Shown: positions 48,812-56,171 of the stretch, piece by piece
How the letters are laid out: each line of letters begins with the position of its first letter
Numbering within the stretch: the stretch's first letter is position 1
Notes under the pieces: generated by a model
What the model was told of the DNA's origin: nothing
What the model saw: the letters and a program-made list of their open reading frames with translations, nothing else
Database searches by the model: none
Made by a program: the position numbers and the translations under genes
From: Verrucomicrobium sp.
GTDB taxonomy: Bacteria > Verrucomicrobiota > Verrucomicrobiia > Methylacidiphilales > UBA1321
Reading direction: 5' to 3'
NCBI GenBank assembly: GCA_017849585.1
Contig: JAFIGT010000017.1
Location: forward strand, 124,001 to 188,000
Length of the DNA stretch: 64,000 nt

Positions 48812-50530
48812 ATGAGCACAACCACTAGCGCCAGCAGTCTGGGTACGGTTACCATGAGCGGCTTTTACAGCGGCATGGACACCGAATCCATTCTCACCAA
48901 GATCAAGGCCGCCTCCGAGATTCCCATTACCAATCTGGAATCCCAGAGCGAGGTGCTCACCAACCAAAAGAGCGCCTACGGCTTCATCAGTTCCAGCCTC
49001 AGCACGCTGTTAACCAAGCTCGACGCCCTGAAGGACCCCCAGCTTTACCGTGGCCACACCGCCTCGGTGACCACCAGCACGGTCGGTACCGCCTCTGCCG
49101 ACGAGACGGCATCGAACGGCACCTACGATATCAGCATCACCCAGGTGGCCACCTCTTCCTCCCTGCGCAGCGGCACCGGTGCCAACACCCAAATGGGCGC
49201 CATCCCCGCCGCCACAGCGACCATCGGCAGCGTCAACGGGATGGATGTCAGCAACAAAACTTTCACCATCAACGGCAAGACAATCACGCTGACCGGCAGC
49301 GAAGCCATTGACGACGGCACTGCCGGTTCCGTCATCGGCAAAATCAACGCTTCCGGCGCGGGTGTCACCGCCTCCTACAACGCGACGACCGGCAAGTTCA
49401 GCCTCACCTCCGCCTCCACCATCGTTCTCGGCACCGGGGCCGACACGAGCAATTTCCTCCGTCAGGCCCAGCTCTTCAACAACGGTACCAGCTCCGTGGA
49501 AAGCACGCTCGGCATCGCCCGCGTCAACGCCACCGCGAGCCTCAATACGGCCGGGTTTGCCACCACGCCGACTACTGGCAATTTCTACGTCAACGGAACC
49601 GCCATCACCTATAATAGCGGCGACTCCCTCAACGACATCCTCACCAAGATCACCAACAGCGGGGCGGGGGTGGTCGCCACCTACGATTCCTACACCGACC
49701 GGATCACGCTCACTTCGTCCAAGCGCGGTGCGCAAGGCATCACCGTCACCGACGGCACCAGTAACCTGGCCTCCGCCATGCGGCTGACCTCTTCCGACAG
49801 CACCTTCGCCATTGGCAAGTCGACCAAGTTCACCGTTGGCAACGATCCCACCGTCCGCCAGAGCGAGGACGAAACGCTCACCGCCGACGAGCTTGGCATC
49901 AAGGGTGTCTCGATGACAGTCATCGGCTCCGGCTCCACCCAGATCACCGTGGGCTCCGACGTCACCGCCGTTCAGACCGCCATCAACGACTTCATCTCCC
50001 AGTACAACTCGTCCCAGAACGTGGTCGCCAGCTACATCAAGGTCGACACTGACGACACCGAGAACAGCGGCATTCTCTCCACCGATTCCACGCTCACCTT
50101 CCTCCCGAGCGACCTGCGAGGCGTCCTCAGCACCGTCATGGACGGCAACAGCTCGATCAAGATGCTCTCCGATCTTGGCATCGAGACCAACAGTTCCGAC
50201 AACACCATCACCTCCGTCGATGCCACCAAGCTGAAGAACGCCATGACCAATAACCTCGAGGATATTGTCACGCTCTTCACCGATTCGAGCAGCGGTCTCG
50301 TCGCCCAGATGCAGGACCGCGTCAACACTTACGCCGACAGCACCAAGGGCAGCATTGTCCTGCGCACCAACAACATCACTTCCCAGCAGAAAACCATCGC
50401 CGACAATATCACCCAGATGCAGGCCCGCGTGGATGCGGAAATCGCTTTCCTGCGCAGTGAGTTTGCCGACATGGAAGCGGCCTATAACTCGTCCCAGAAC
50501 GTGCTCAGTACCCTGCTCAACAACCTGTAA
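48812..50530 (+). CDS. fliD: Flagellar hook-associated protein 2 (filament cap) FliD
   Basis: FliD forms the cap under which flagellin polymerises. 572 residues. The N-terminal region VTMSGFYSGMDTESILTKI is the export and coiled-coil start of the family. A Thr/Ser/Asn-rich variable middle follows. The C-terminal coiled coil (LVAQMQDRVNTYADSTKGSI... DAEIAFLRSEFADMEAAYN) ends in STLLNNL, typical of FliD. It is the first gene of a cluster with fliS and is preceded by a sigma-28 promoter. Confidence 0.94.
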   Translation: MSTTTSASSLGTVTMSGFYSGMDTESILTKIKAASEIPITNLESQSEVLTNQKSAYGFISSSLSTLLTKLDALKDPQLYRGHTASVTTSTVGTASADETASNGTYDISITQVATSSSLRSGTGANTQMGAIPAATATIGSVNGMDVSNKTFTINGKTITLTGSEAIDDGTAGSVIGKINASGAGVTASYNATTGKFSLTSASTIVLGTGADTSNFLRQAQLFNNGTSSVESTLGIARVNATASLNTAGFATTPTTGNFYVNGTAITYNSGDSLNDILTKITNSGAGVVATYDSYTDRITLTSSKRGAQGITVTDGTSNLASAMRLTSSDSTFAIGKSTKFTVGNDPTVRQSEDETLTADELGIKGVSMTVIGSGSTQITVGSDVTAVQTAINDFISQYNSSQNVVASYIKVDTDDTENSGILSTDSTLTFLPSDLRGVLSTVMDGNSSIKMLSDLGIETNSSDNTITSVDATKLKNAMTNNLEDIVTLFTDSSSGLVAQMQDRVNTYADSTKGSIVLRTNNITSQQKTIADNITQMQARVDAEIAFLRSEFADMEAAYNSSQNVLSTLLNNL

Positions 50531-50560
50531 TCCCGTCGTAAAACCAGACCAGAAACCAGC

Positions 50561-51169
50561 ATGAAACTCATCATCGATTCAACTCCCGTGGAGATTCCCG
50601 CCGCGGAATCCCAATCCTTTCGCGAACTCTGCGCCGGTGTCATGAACTGGCTGCTGCCACGCAAGCGGTCCATTGCCACCTGCAAGTTCGACGGCCATGT
50701 GATCCACTCCGTCGAGGAGGCCGACTCCATCCTGTCCTCCTCCCGCACCTGCGAAATCGAATCGGTCCCCTTTGATATTGCCCTGCAATCGGCCCTGGCG
50801 CTGCAATGCAATTACCTCGGCGAGATTGAGCAACAATGCGACAAGCTCGTCACCGAGAGCCTCCTCGCGGATCCGCAGGACATTGTCAAACTCTGGCGCG
50901 AGATTTGCGAGAATCTCAAGCAACAGATTTCCTTCATCCCCCAGCTCGGCAACATCCTCAGCGAATCCCAGGTCGATCACCTCATCACCAGCCGCATGGA
51001 GGATTTCAACGAGATCATGAAGAGCGCCGCTGCCGCGCTCTCCACGGCCGACGTGGTCCAGTTTTCCGATGTTCTCGAACTCAGGCTCGTCCCCTGGCTG
51101 CAACAGTACCGCGAGTTTCTGCTGCAACACGTCGACGACCTGGGTCGTGCCAATAAGAATGCCGTATAA
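50561..51169 (+). CDS. Unknown protein between fliD and fliS
   Basis: 202 residues, soluble and helical. The first ~70 residues are strand-rich (MKLIIDSTPVEIP, KFDGHVIHSVEEAD), and the rest is long helices (EIEQQCDKLVTESLLADPQDIVKLWREICENLKQQ). No family is recognised. Its place, 30 bases after fliD and 3 bases before fliS, suggests a filament-assembly accessory or chaperone (inference). Confidence 0.75.
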   Translation: MKLIIDSTPVEIPAAESQSFRELCAGVMNWLLPRKRSIATCKFDGHVIHSVEEADSILSSSRTCEIESVPFDIALQSALALQCNYLGEIEQQCDKLVTESLLADPQDIVKLWREICENLKQQISFIPQLGNILSESQVDHLITSRMEDFNEIMKSAAAALSTADVVQFSDVLELRLVPWLQQYREFLLQHVDDLGRANKNAV

Positions 51170-51172
51170 ATT

Positions 51173-51580
51173 ATGATGAATGCCTCACGTTCGTACCTCG
51201 TTGCTCAAATTCAATCCGCCACTCCGGGGGGGTTAATCGTGCTGCTCTACGATGGGCTGCTGCGATTTGCCCAAGAGGCAGAAGAAAAACTGGCAAGCAA
51301 AGATCCCACGACAGTGAAACTGGCGGCCGAAGCGGTCCAGCGCGCCACCGATATCCTCACGGAACTCGCCTCCTCCCTGCGCGAGGATCAGAATCCGGAG
51401 TTGTGCGCCAACCTCTCGCAACTCTACTCCTTCTTTACCACCGAGCTTTCCCGCGCCCTTCACACCCGCGATGCCGCCATCATCACGAGTCTCCTCCCGC
51501 TCATCACCCAGCTACGCGATACATGGCAGGAGGCCGAAGGCCTCGCGTATCAACGCACCGACGCCGCCGCCACGGGTTAA
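51173..51580 (+). CDS. fliS: Flagellin export chaperone FliS
   Basis: FliS binds the flagellin C-terminus and prevents premature polymerisation in the cytoplasm. 135 residues. The diagnostic N-terminal segment YLVAQIQSATPGGLIVLLYDGLLRFAQEA is present, and the remainder is a four-helix bundle with an Ala-rich tail. It sits immediately after the unknown protein gene, 3 bases between them. Confidence 0.92.
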   Translation: MMNASRSYLVAQIQSATPGGLIVLLYDGLLRFAQEAEEKLASKDPTTVKLAAEAVQRATDILTELASSLREDQNPELCANLSQLYSFFTTELSRALHTRDAAIITSLLPLITQLRDTWQEAEGLAYQRTDAAATG

Positions 51581-51597
51581 GCCCCGTCAAAATCGCC

Positions 51598-52926
51598 ATG
51601 TCTTCCCCCTTTGCCAGCCCACTCCACACGGAAACCCCCACCGTCGTCTTTGTCGAATCCCGCCATGGCGTGGAATCGCTCTTCACCCGCCTCCTGCGCC
51701 ACGGTGCCCGTCAGGCCGGATGGAAATATCGCGTCGTTACTCTCCGCGATGGCCAGGGCCGCCGCCTGCTCGATGGCGAATTACGCGATGCGATTTGCGC
51801 CGGCTCGGTGGACCTCATCGCCTTCCTCATGGATGCCCCGCTTGGATCGTCCGGTCTCTGGAAGTCGGCCCACCTCCACGACATCCCGAAAATCTCGCTC
51901 TGGTACGACGATTATCTCCGCAGCCCCGACACGCTTGCCCATCCCGATATCTGGCGCCATTGGCAACAAAACGACCACGTCACCACCTTCATTTGGGACG
52001 GCCACTGGCGCACGCAGTGGGAGAATTTCACGCATCATCCCGCGTTACCGATTCATCTTTCCGCCGACCCCGAACAATTCTCGCCCGATACCGTTTCCGT
52101 CTTTCCCGAGTTGCATGCGCACGCGGTTTTCACCGGCACCATCCCGGCGCTCGCCGCCCTCAACGACGAGGCCCATGCGTTGCCGGTCCCCGTTCGCAAC
52201 TATCTGAACACGTGCGTGGCCACCCTTGAAAAATCCGCCTGGCCGCTGCAACCCTACGAAGTGGCTGCCGCGGAACGCGCGGCCCTCGCTCCCAAGCTCT
52301 CCGCCGTCATCGATCAATGGCTGGTCAATCCCGCTCATCAGGCGCTCTTCAATCATCAGGTCTGGCACTGGAGCAAACGCATTGCGCGTCTGCGCGGCCT
52401 CGCCGCCGTGATGAAGAGCGGACCCGTCGCGGTCGTCAGCGGTCACCACACCGCACGCTTCGCGGGCGAGGCTGAACTACGCGCCGCGCTCCATGCGGAC
52501 GAGTCCTTCCAATTCCGCAACACCACCGATATCGAACCCAAGCATTGGGCCGGTATCTTCCGCAGTGGCCGCTTCCAATTGCAATTCACCGATCCCCAAT
52601 CGGTGCAGGGCGGGCTGCCCTTCCGCGTTTTCGAATGCGCCGCCTCCGGCTCGGCGTTGCTCTCCGACACCCGGCCCGAACTCGCCGCGGAGTTCAAGCA
52701 CGACGAGGAAATCGTCCTCGCCACCGATGAGGCCGATCTCACCCGCCGCGCGCACGATCTTTTCCACGCCGACGACGACATGCTCGTCTCCATCGGCGCC
52801 GCTGCGCTCGACAAATTCCGTCAGAAACACACCTGTGGCCAGCGCTGGCGCGAGATCGTTTTGAAACATCATGAGTCCCTCCAACACGCGGCCGCACGAC
52901 ACGCCGCACCACCTGCTCTGGCCTAA
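51598..52926 (+). CDS. CgeB/Glyco_trans_1_2-like glycosyltransferase in the flagellar cluster
   Basis: 442 residues from ATG 51598. An N-terminal Rossmann-like half (PTVVFVESRHGVESLF) and a C-terminal GT-B half are present. The latter includes GLPFRVFECAASGSALLSDTRPELAAEF, which matches the end region of CgeB-type spore or flagellar glycosyltransferases. The position 17 bases after fliS suggests glycosylation of flagellin or of another filament protein (inference). A possible 47-codon gene overlaps its 3' end. Confidence 0.8.
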   Translation: MSSPFASPLHTETPTVVFVESRHGVESLFTRLLRHGARQAGWKYRVVTLRDGQGRRLLDGELRDAICAGSVDLIAFLMDAPLGSSGLWKSAHLHDIPKISLWYDDYLRSPDTLAHPDIWRHWQQNDHVTTFIWDGHWRTQWENFTHHPALPIHLSADPEQFSPDTVSVFPELHAHAVFTGTIPALAALNDEAHALPVPVRNYLNTCVATLEKSAWPLQPYEVAAAERAALAPKLSAVIDQWLVNPAHQALFNHQVWHWSKRIARLRGLAAVMKSGPVAVVSGHHTARFAGEAELRAALHADESFQFRNTTDIEPKHWAGIFRSGRFQLQFTDPQSVQGGLPFRVFECAASGSALLSDTRPELAAEFKHDEEIVLATDEADLTRRAHDLFHADDDMLVSIGAAALDKFRQKHTCGQRWREIVLKHHESLQHAAARHAAPPALA

Positions 52927-53014
52927 CTGGTGGCAACACCACGACGAGCGAGATACCGCTCCCAGCATTTGGCGCGCCTTGCTCGCTTTTCTCGGAATTC
53001 GTAAATCCGAATAA
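52871..53014 (+). CDS. Possible small protein, 47 aa
   Basis: The ORF MSPSNTRPHDTPHHLLWPNW... ends in a hydrophobic helix (WRALLAFLGIRKSE). It overlaps the last 56 bases of the glycosyltransferase gene in another frame and ends just before the promoter of the GspG-like cassette. No family is recognised, and the His/Trp-rich composition is unusual. Confidence 0.35.
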   Translation: MSPSNTRPHDTPHHLLWPNWWQHHDERDTAPSIWRALLAFLGIRKSE

Positions 53015-53027
53015 TCGCCACGCTGCC

Positions 53028-53056
53028 TTGACAGCGTCCCCGACCACACCGAACAT
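53028..53056 (+). promoter_or_regulatory. Promoter of GspG-like/SMR cassette 1
   Basis: A consensus -35 TTGACA (53028-53033), 17 bases, and GAACAT (53051-53056) as a poor -10. The ATG follows 9 bases later. The same arrangement precedes cassette 2, so the element was duplicated with the genes. The leader would be about zero bases long. Confidence 0.6.
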
Positions 53057-53065
53057 GATTCCCTC

Positions 53066-53533
53066 ATGCTCTACTCGTGGTGGCAGGTTTTGCAGAAACT
53101 GAAGTTCGTCAAGATGCTCGCCGTCCTGGGCATCCTCGGTCTCCTCTTTCTCATTCTCGGCCTTTGCGGTTACCTTTCCTCGCCGAGCGTGGAGACCGAC
53201 TCCCAAAAGAAATGGCGCATCGTCGCCGCGCTCAATGCCGATCAACTCGCCGTCGGCTGCGATGCCTACAAAAAACAATACGGCCATTTTCCCAGCACGG
53301 CTGAGAACGCCCCACTCTACGCCATTCTCCACAGCAACCAGCCCAGCCCGGACAATCAGCAGGGCATCCGCTTCGCCGATATCGGACCCAAATACATTGA
53401 CCCGAACGGCGTCGTCCTCGACCCATGGAAAACACCCTATCGCATCGTCTTCGACGATCAGGGCGTGACTGTCACCTCCGCTGGTGCCGACAAACTTTTC
53501 GACACTCCCGACGACCTCACCAAACGCCGATGA
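53066..53533 (+). CDS. Membrane-anchored GspG-like C-terminal domain protein, copy 1
   Basis: 155 residues. One helix (~16-37, MLAVLGILGLLFLILGLCGYL), then a domain like the C-terminal part of the type II secretion pseudopilin GspG: KKQYGHFPSTAEN, DPWKTPYRIVFDD, and SAGADKLFDTPDDL, which resembles the calcium-binding loop. It lacks the prepilin peptidase site (G-F-T-L-x-E) and so is not a normal pseudopilin. The stop overlaps the start of SMR gene 1 (ATGA at 53530-53533), coupling the two. Function is unknown. Confidence 0.8.
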   Translation: MLYSWWQVLQKLKFVKMLAVLGILGLLFLILGLCGYLSSPSVETDSQKKWRIVAALNADQLAVGCDAYKKQYGHFPSTAENAPLYAILHSNQPSPDNQQGIRFADIGPKYIDPNGVVLDPWKTPYRIVFDDQGVTVTSAGADKLFDTPDDLTKRR

Positions 53534-53868
53534 CTAAAGCCTACCTCTACCTCCTCATTGCCATCGTCGCCGAGGTGATCGCCACCACCTTCCTCAAAAA
53601 GAGCGACGGCTTCACCCGCTTCTGGCCCAGCACCGTCAGCACGGTCGGCTACATCATCACCTTCTACTTCCTCTCGCTCTCGTTGCGCACCCTCAATGTC
53701 GGCGTCGCCTATGGCATCTGGTGCGGCCTCGGTATCATCTTCATCTCCCTGCTCGCCTTCTTTATCTACGGCGAAAAGCTCGACCTCGCCGCCATCGTCG
53801 GCCTCGGCTTCATCATCGCCGGAGTCGTGATCATCAACGTTCTCTCCAAGACGGTCAGCCACTCGTAG
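53530..53868 (+). CDS. Small multidrug resistance (SMR) transporter, EmrE-like, copy 1
   Basis: 112 residues and four membrane helices, like EmrE. The essential proton- and drug-binding glutamate is E15 in LLIAIVAEVIATT. IWCGLGIIFISLLAFF and GEKLDLAAIVGLGFIIAGVVIIN match helices 3-4 of the family. It exports lipophilic cations or related compounds by proton antiport. It is translationally coupled to the GspG-like gene upstream. A paralogue lies 538 bases downstream. Confidence 0.93.
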   Translation: MTKAYLYLLIAIVAEVIATTFLKKSDGFTRFWPSTVSTVGYIITFYFLSLSLRTLNVGVAYGIWCGLGIIFISLLAFFIYGEKLDLAAIVGLGFIIAGVVIINVLSKTVSHS

Positions 53869-53882
53869 ACTCTGTGTGAGTC

Positions 53883-53912
53883 TTGACACCACCCCGCCCC
53901 TGCGCCGAACAT
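53883..53912 (+). promoter_or_regulatory. Promoter of GspG-like/SMR cassette 2
   Basis: TTGACA (53883-53888), 18 bases, GAACAT (53907-53912), and 9 bases to the ATG at 53922. The short segment between GAACAT and ATG is also alike in both cassettes (ATTCC then TC before the ATG). Confidence 0.6.
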
Positions 53913-53921
53913 CATTCCATC

Positions 53922-54410
53922 ATGGGCGCGGAACCAAATCCGATGCAGGGGCAGGACACGCCACCGAAACCGAAACGATCCTGGCTGTGGTGGCCAACGC
54001 GGATTCTATTGGTATTTCTGCTTCTCGTAATACTCGACGCGCTTCTCTTTCCATTGAGTGGAAACCGTACACTCACTGCGGCAAAAAAGGCCATGACCCA
54101 TACCATGACCACGCAAATCACGATCGCTAGCACTTTGTTCAAAGAAGAGTACGGCCACTATCCGCCCACCACGGATAATGCAAAATTGCAGCAACTCTTG
54201 GATGGCAACACGGTCGAAGGCGAGAACCCCCGCCGCATCCAATTCATGAGCTTCAACAAGAAAGACAATAATTCCAAAGGCGAAATCTGCGATCCATGGA
54301 AAACGCCTTACCTCATTACCTACGACGACAAAGGACCGCTCATTATCTCCGCCGGGCCAGATAAGAAGTTCGGCACGAAAGACGACATCACCAATCGCGA
54401 CTCCCGATGA
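53922..54410 (+). CDS. Membrane-anchored GspG-like C-terminal domain protein, copy 2
   Basis: 162 residues from ATG 53922. A Pro/Lys-rich cytoplasmic leader and one helix (WWPTRILLVFLLLVILDALLF) precede the GspG-like domain: EEYGHYPPTTDN, DPWKTPYLITYDD, and SAGPDKKFGTKDDI. The last matches the calcium loop of T2SS pseudopilins more closely than in copy 1. There is no prepilin cleavage motif. The TGA overlaps the ATG of SMR gene 2 (54407-54410). An upstream TTG start (53883) would lie inside the putative -35 box and is less likely. Confidence 0.8.
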   Translation: MGAEPNPMQGQDTPPKPKRSWLWWPTRILLVFLLLVILDALLFPLSGNRTLTAAKKAMTHTMTTQITIASTLFKEEYGHYPPTTDNAKLQQLLDGNTVEGENPRRIQFMSFNKKDNNSKGEICDPWKTPYLITYDDKGPLIISAGPDKKFGTKDDITNRDSR

Positions 54411-54745
54411 CCAAAGCCTATCTCTATCTCCTCATTGCGATTCTCGCGGAAGCGGCGGCGACCACACTTCTGAAAAAGAGTGATGGCTTCACCCGTTGGC
54501 TGCCGAGTGCGGGTAGCATCGTGGGCTACCTCGTTACGTTCTATTTCCTGTCGCTCACGTTGTGTGTGATGAACGTCGGCATCGCGAACGCGATCTGGGC
54601 GGGATTGAGCATCATCCTCGTCTGCATCCTCGCCGCGATTTTCTACGGGGAACGTCTCGACGCCCCCGCCATCATCGGCATTGCCATGATCATGGGCGGC
54701 ATCGTCCTCATCCATTTTTATTCGAAGACCGTCACCAACGGGTGA
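54407..54745 (+). CDS. Small multidrug resistance (SMR) transporter, EmrE-like, copy 2
   Basis: 112 residues, four helices. The first nine residues MTKAYLYLL are identical to copy 1; E15 is kept (LAEAAATT). Helices 3-4 read AIWAGLSIILVCILAAIF and GERLDAPAIIGIAMIMGGIVL. Copies 1 and 2 are clear paralogues but have diverged in the membrane, as in SMR pairs that work as heterodimers. A family B repeat follows 33 bases after the stop. Confidence 0.93.
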   Translation: MTKAYLYLLIAILAEAAATTLLKKSDGFTRWLPSAGSIVGYLVTFYFLSLTLCVMNVGIANAIWAGLSIILVCILAAIFYGERLDAPAIIGIAMIMGGIVLIHFYSKTVTNG

Positions 54746-54778
54746 GCGGTCTATTGGCTCGAACTGGAAATTCTTTCG

Positions 54779-54845
54779 CGTTGTAGGGCGCTTCGGTGAA
54801 GTGTTAGCACACGGCATAGCCATGGCGGGACACCGTCCCGCCGTA
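54779..54845 (-). repeat. Dispersed repeat family B, copy 2 (inverted)
   Basis: This is the reverse complement of the 1900-1966 element. Matching blocks include GTGAAGTGTTAGC, CACGGCAT and GGCGGGAC. It is in the gap between the second SMR gene and purB. Confidence 0.68.
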
Positions 54846-54878
54846 CAGAAGCCATGCGCGGAGAAATTCCCGCGTCGC

Positions 54879-56171
54879 TTACAGCCCCACTTGCTTGAAC
54901 TTGCGCTTGATGTGCTGGAAGTGGCGCTTGGTCGAGCAGAGTTCGGTGATCTGCTTTTTCGTGAGGAACTTGGCGATCGCTTCGGATTCCTTCAGGTACT
55001 CGCCGAGTTGCTTGTCGCCACGCCAACAGGCCATGGCGCACGATTGCACCGCTTCGTACGCATCGCGGCGAGCCATGCCGGCATCGGTCAGGGCGAGGAG
55101 CACGCTCTGCGAATAGTAGAGACCCTTCGACAAGTCCATATTGCGTTGCATGTTCTCGGGATAGACGATCTGGTTCTCGACGAGCTTGGCGGTGAGCACG
55201 AGCATGTAGTCGAGGAGGATGGTGCTATCGGGGAAAATGATGCGCTCGACGGACGAGTGCGAGATGTCGCGTTCGTGCCAGAGGGCGATGTTCTCCATCG
55301 CGGCGACGGAATTGCCGCGCAGGATGCGGGCGAGACCGCTGAGCTTTTCGCCCGTGATCGGGTTGCGCTTGTGCGGCATGGCGCTGCTGCCCTTTTGACC
55401 CTTGGCAAAGAATTCTTCGACTTCCAACACTTCGGTGCGTTGGAGGTGACGGAATTCCGTGGCCCAACGGTCAATGCTGGAACCGATGATGGCGAGGGTG
55501 GCCATGAATTGCGCATGGCGGTCGCGCTGCACGACCTGCGTGGAGAGCGGATCGACGCCGAGGCCGAGGTGCTTGCACACGTATTGTTCGACGCGCGGAT
55601 CGAGGTGCGCGTTCGTGCCGACGGCGCCGGACAATTTACCGACGTTGATTTCCTGGCGCGATTGCTCGAGGCGCGTGACGGCGCGGCGGAATTCGTCGTA
55701 CATGAGGGCGAGCTTCAGACCGTAGCTGATCGGCTCGGCGTGAATGCCGTGCGAGCGGCCAATCATGGGGACGAATTGGTACTGCTTGGCTTTCTTGCCG
55801 ATGACCTTGAGCAACGCCTTGAGGTCGGCGAGGAGGAGATCCGCGCTGGCGCGCAATTGCAGTGCGAGCGTGGTGTCGAGCAAGTCAGAGGAGGTTAACC
55901 CGCGGTGAATGAAACGGCCCGAGGGTCCGACGTGGACGGCGACTTCTTCGAGGAAGGCGAGCACGTCGTGTTGCGTGCGCTTTTCGTTTTCGTTGACGTT
56001 AGCGATGCGGAACTTGGCGCGCTGGCGGATAATCTTGGCATCCTTCTTGGGGATGATGCCGCAGAGGGCCATGCCTTCGCAGGCGAGAATTTCAATTTCG
56101 AGCCAATGATTGAGTTTGGCTTCGTCGGTCCAAAGGGCGGCCATTTCCTGGCGCGAATAACGTGGGATCAT
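54879..56171 (-). CDS. purB: Adenylosuccinate lyase
   Basis: PurB catalyses two fumarate-releasing steps of purine synthesis. 430 residues. The fumarase/aspartase-superfamily signature SSAMPHKRNP is intact. RSHGIHAEPISYGLKLA and TSSDLLDTTLALQL carry the other conserved residues, and the N-terminal MIPRYSRQEMAALW is the standard start. The gene stands alone on the minus strand. Confidence 0.97.
   Translation of the reverse strand: MIPRYSRQEMAALWTDEAKLNHWLEIEILACEGMALCGIIPKKDAKIIRQRAKFRIANVNENEKRTQHDVLAFLEEVAVHVGPSGRFIHRGLTSSDLLDTTLALQLRASADLLLADLKALLKVIGKKAKQYQFVPMIGRSHGIHAEPISYGLKLALMYDEFRRAVTRLEQSRQEINVGKLSGAVGTNAHLDPRVEQYVCKHLGLGVDPLSTQVVQRDRHAQFMATLAIIGSSIDRWATEFRHLQRTEVLEVEEFFAKGQKGSSAMPHKRNPITGEKLSGLARILRGNSVAAMENIALWHERDISHSSVERIIFPDSTILLDYMLVLTAKLVENQIVYPENMQRNMDLSKGLYYSQSVLLALTDAGMARRDAYEAVQSCAMACWRGDKQLGEYLKESEAIAKFLTKKQITELCSTKRHFQHIKRKFKQVGL

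Follow-up and report, generated by a model that had tools for sequence, protein, structure and literature searches.

A two-gene operon, joining a gene for a membrane-anchored, pilin-head-like protein (G) to one for an SMR exporter (S), may have been duplicated in tandem in one genus of Verrucomicrobiota to give an exporter (S1), a specialised paralogue (S2) and G proteins that act as envelope-side accessories; from the sequence we would give this account about an even chance of being right. Plain in the sequence are the duplicated layout, the stop-to-start coupling of the genes within each unit, the conservation of the locus in two species and the loss, in S2 only, of the tyrosine switch and the fulcrum glycine. 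Against the account stands the narrow occurrence of the G-SMR pairing, which is confined to these two species within a single genus.

The two units, G1-S1 and G2-S2, lie consecutively in the window (the whole stretch of 64,000 nucleotides that was analysed), and each consists of a single-helix GspG-like gene followed by an SMR gene:

53028 to 53065, + strand: promoter-like element of unit 1, TTGACA-N17-GAACAT-N9-ATG, common to unit 2 and to the equivalent place in the congener
53066 to 53533, + strand: G1, a single-helix, leaderless GspG/pilin-head-like protein of 155 amino acids
53530 to 53868, + strand: S1, a predicted Qac-type SMR exporter of 112 amino acids with all hallmark residues, starting within the G1 stop codon (ATGA)
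53883 to 53921, + strand: promoter-like element of unit 2, TTGACA-N18-GAACAT, intact in the congener too
53922 to 54410, + strand: G2, a second leaderless GspG/pilin-head-like protein, of 162 amino acids
54407 to 54745, + strand: S2, a diverged SMR paralogue of 112 amino acids that has Asn in place of Tyr60 and Ser in place of Gly67 (EmrE numbering), starting within the G2 stop codon (ATGA)

The reading frames bear out the duplicated arrangement of GspG-like and SMR genes that a first-pass annotation had described, with an ATGA overlap joining the stop codon of G to the start codon of the SMR gene in both units. No SMR genes besides S1 and S2 were found in the 4.8 Mb genome. As an Rfam search of positions 52800-55000 at the gathering threshold returned no match, no known guanidinium riboswitch lies near the locus. 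The upstream neighbours, at 48812-52926 of the window, are flagellar genes (a FliD-like frame recognised by eye and FliS by Pfam), followed by a gene for a glycosyltransferase-like protein (PF13524).

Both units are preceded by TTGACA-N17/18-GAACAT-N9/10-ATG, an arrangement kept in both species. Genome-wide there are four TTGACA-N15-19-GAACAT sites, two of them at this locus, and the reversed control gave none. The TTGACA-type promoters proposed earlier stand as far as the TTGACA itself, which is present before both units; a sigma-70 consensus scan called no complete promoter before either. In the congener, an insertion carrying a palindrome with 26-base arms (L032:1066-1117) separates S1 from the unit-2 element and leaves that element intact, which fits separate expression of the two units. 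After S2 in our window, near 54785-54850, tgtagggcg and then cgtacag resemble the congener's palindromic repeat.

That congener is a second species of the genus, the MAG Verrucomicrobia bacterium Tous-C9LFEB (G002/L086), in which purB is preceded by the same double unit and the proteins are 92-97% identical to those studied here. Between the two species, dN and dS (NG86) are 0.046 and 0.267 for G1 (ratio ~0.17), 0.018 and 0.154 for S1 (~0.12), 0.026 and 0.126 for G2 (~0.21) and 0.012 and 0.146 for S2 (~0.08); with ratios well below 1, all four genes are constrained. A third congener (G001, assembly ~79% complete) has a single, canonical SMR that is 77% identical to S1 and is encoded elsewhere, without a G gene. 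In a tree of SMR proteins this protein forms one clade with S1 and S2 (support 100/99), and since the S2 stem is longer than that of S1 (0.58 versus 0.13), the two paralogues appear to have diverged asymmetrically after duplication. The tree does not order the duplication relative to the split from the third congener (support 91/55).

The G proteins are ~35% identical to one another and have YGH[FY]P, DPWKTPY and SAGxDKxFxTxDD in common. The prepilin motif [FY]TLxE, the leader/peptidase site with Glu5, is absent from both; these shared motifs and the missing prepilin peptidase site had been noted before, and the sequence agrees on each count. The description of the proteins as GspG-like needs tempering. 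G1 matches NCBIfam GspG at 6e-6 and Pfam T2SSG at 0.0026, in each case below the curated cut-off, and the two G proteins score 26 and 23 bits against TIGR01710 (cut-off 88.9) and 18 and 20 bits against PF08334 (cut-off 21), so that the GspG/T2SSG resemblance is weak and lies under the curated cut-offs. A profile built from G1 and G2 together with related leaderless proteins matches GspG structures (best 5wda, 1.9e-6) in an alignment that spans helix and head, and it matches local true prepilins at 99% probability; G2 also has IQFMSFNKKD in common with one true prepilin elsewhere in the same genome. AlphaFold models built for the two G proteins from four-sequence alignments were of low confidence (pLDDT 57 and 48), too poor for a fold search, and a tree of head proteins gave no resolution on G1 and G2 as sisters. 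Positive residues ahead of the helix lead us to infer that the proteins are anchored in the inner membrane, with the head in the periplasm. Tandem pairs of prepilin-type genes occur elsewhere in this genome, at G000:C33 (L050:3934-5056) and G000:C34 (L051:2770-3932).

G1 and G2 belong to a group of leaderless pilin-head proteins that is widespread in Verrucomicrobiota. With the G-group profile we fetched 29 loci outside the window; a DUF1501 gene lies in the same stretch in 21, and the prepilin motif is absent from all of the best profile matches. The association of head and DUF1501 genes recurs in many Verrucomicrobiota (L186-L210), examples being L091:2646-4591, where the two are also joined by an ATGA overlap, and L093:2639-4652. 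Two head loci that were examined have the order DUF1800-DUF1501-head, and loci of this composition look like an undescribed envelope gene set.

Pairing of such a gene with an SMR gene is far more restricted. Among ~100 other Verrucomicrobiota genomes, the third congener included, no G-like gene adjoins an SMR gene, a few of these loci lying near contig ends with an incomplete upstream side; the sample comprised ~30 relatives up to order level, 51 genomes phylum-wide and ~20 further class-level genomes. Nor did the matches listed in two phylum-wide searches, their positions compared by eye, include a close G-SMR pair outside this locus. The first-pass annotation had proposed to look for GspG-like genes upstream of SMR genes in other genomes; the pairing proves to be conserved in two species and absent at the SMR loci of ~100 other genomes, a result that comes close to refuting a general coupling. 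As two congeners have the pair and ~100 other genomes are without it, the coupling is, within the sampled genomes, a genus-level association, and the canonical SMR of the third congener, which occurs without G, indicates that SMR function does not require G as a rule. Open-licence papers, represented mostly by their titles and abstracts, yielded no mention of a coupling between SMR transporters and pseudopilins.

This distribution lends some credit to an incidental adjacency, in which SMR genes came by capture to lie behind a lineage-specific pilin-head gene and a block duplication then copied the pair, with expression in common and function not. The phylum has many pilin-head proteins encoded beside unrelated genes, for the most part DUF1501 as at the loci above, ~100 SMR loci are without a pilin-head gene, and the third congener's SMR does without G. 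However, the exact four-base overlap has been kept in both units and in both species despite divergence to 61% (S) and ~35% (G) identity, and all four genes are under purifying selection, which together with the overlap speaks for shared retention rather than contact between the proteins. We regard incidental adjacency as a serious alternative, if a somewhat doubtful one.

Both S proteins match PF00893 well above its cut-off of 23.7 bits (S1 at 97 bits, S2 at 84) and are 61% identical over 112 amino acids. Their N-termini, previously said to share nine residues, are indeed identical, and the match runs to 12. The closest solved relative of S1 is EmrE (2e-29), and S1 keeps E14, Y60, W63 and GXG. 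In S2, Glu14, Trp63 and the TM4 glycines are kept, and both proteins have Thr18 and Tyr40, marks of the Qac type (PMC9000954). The S2 of both species carries Asn60 in place of the EmrE Tyr60 'switch' and Ser67 in place of Gly67 of the GXG fulcrum in TM3. In a survey of 106 distinct sequences, made up of EmrE and Verrucomicrobiota SMRs with near-duplicates removed, none of the other ~105 has this combination; Gly67 is invariant apart from S2, and Tyr60 is otherwise lost once, to Asp in an SMR of G609 (L161:1495-1929) that keeps Gly67 and has no adjoining pilin-head gene. The SMR tyrosine is nearly perfectly conserved and is essential in every subtype tested (PMC9574504), and neither EmrE Y60F nor the equivalent Gdx-Clo mutant gives a current (PMC9000954). 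Family knowledge makes an ordinary proton-coupled, Qac-type exporter the best reading of S1. S2 is a family member by sequence, with its standard mechanism in doubt; going by the published mutants, it is best read as a specialised, switch-less paralogue that would be unable to run the standard cycle alone.

A further alternative takes S1 and S2 as the two subunits of a paired SMR heterodimer, each with a G protein of its own. It gains from the presence of two paralogues in one locus, and from an S2 that is without residues needed for homodimer transport and yet keeps Glu14, Trp63 and the TM4 glycines. Adjacent SMR pairs, however, have opposite charge bias in >95% of cases, with paired SMRs centred near +4 and -4 (PMC9574504), whereas in Arg/Lys bias S1 stands at -1 and S2 at -2 or -1, both slightly negative, and EmrE at -2 by the same count. 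This equality argues against fixed-topology heterodimers; S1 and S2 fit the pattern of dual-topology proteins, and a mixed S1-S2 dimer is possible. Nor are the two genes adjacent within 100 bp; a separate upstream element precedes each unit, and an insertion lies between the units in the congener. We therefore consider a paired heterodimer unlikely. The first-pass annotation had read the two as paired SMRs from differences in their helices, a reading that finds no support in biases of the same sign and in the presence of G2 and a promoter-like element between S1 and S2; the telling differences are instead those that S2 shows at Tyr60 and Gly67.

Neither an error of assembly nor simple decay is a likely source of the S2 residues, given the agreement of two assemblies and the constraint on S2. 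A decaying duplicate heading for loss would explain the disappearance of two nearly or fully invariant residues and a branch longer than that of S1, but between the two species the dN/dS of S2 is ~0.08, which does not exceed the S1 ratio, and the open frame, overlap, Glu14 and Trp63 are intact in both. We consider such a fate highly improbable.

The account that we prefer, a duplicated operon with a specialised S2, would work as follows. An operon that paired the gene of a non-polymerising pilin-head protein tethered to the membrane (G) with that of a Qac-type SMR exporter (S) would have been duplicated in tandem. S1 would form an antiparallel homodimer and, like EmrE, move hydrophobic cations out in exchange for protons. 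With the proton/substrate glutamate, the binding-site tryptophan and the TM4 glycines in place, S2 should still dimerise and bind, and it should not perform the standard transport cycle alone. Because it is predicted to dimerise and bind but not to cycle by itself, S2 was most likely retained for a specialised role, either to bias the conformation of S1 as its partner or to transport by way of an altered gate. G would be produced along with its SMR partner and held in the inner membrane, its head facing the periplasm, and the coupling of the genes suggests that it is most likely an envelope-side accessory; the first-pass annotation had offered a periplasmic adaptor or gate as its possible role.

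A more specific module can be imagined, in which the membrane-tethered pilin-head protein is the periplasmic partner of the SMR exporter and the switch-less SMR either biases its canonical twin in a mixed dimer or gates without tyrosine; we think this distinctly improbable. In the latter case, the switch-less SMR would have a gate that does not depend on a tyrosine regarded as indispensable throughout the family. Work on dual-topology membrane proteins and on alternating access uses SMR transporters as a model, and every subtype tested is held to require the tyrosine switch. With S2, a conserved exception occurs naturally beside a canonical sister, and the requirement for the switch can be tested in this variant. 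The locus also draws attention to a large and apparently undescribed group of leaderless pilin-head proteins that are coupled to various envelope genes in Verrucomicrobiota.

Among known systems, S1 and S2 are closest to EmrE and the Qac subtype: they match PF00893 and EmrE best, keep Glu14, Trp63, Thr18, Tyr40 and the TM4 glycines, and have a similar, slightly negative Arg/Lys bias. They differ in that S2 is without the tyrosine switch and Gly67 and in that both are encoded behind a pilin-head gene. With paired SMRs such as EbrAB, MdtIJ and similar systems they share the presence of two SMR paralogues in one locus, but they are without opposite bias, are not adjacent and have separate upstream elements. 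G1 and G2 resemble GspG of type II secretion and the type IV pilin-like proteins of Verrucomicrobiota in having an N-terminal helix and a head with a C-terminal, GspG-like Asp-rich loop; unlike GspG, they are without the prepilin peptidase motif, fall under the curated GspG cut-offs and lie outside any secretion operon. Finally, the leaderless heads found beside DUF1501 and DUF1800 share the domain architecture of G1 and G2, and in L091 the ATGA overlap as well, but there the head gene lies downstream of DUF1501, whereas G1 and G2 lie upstream of their SMR partners.
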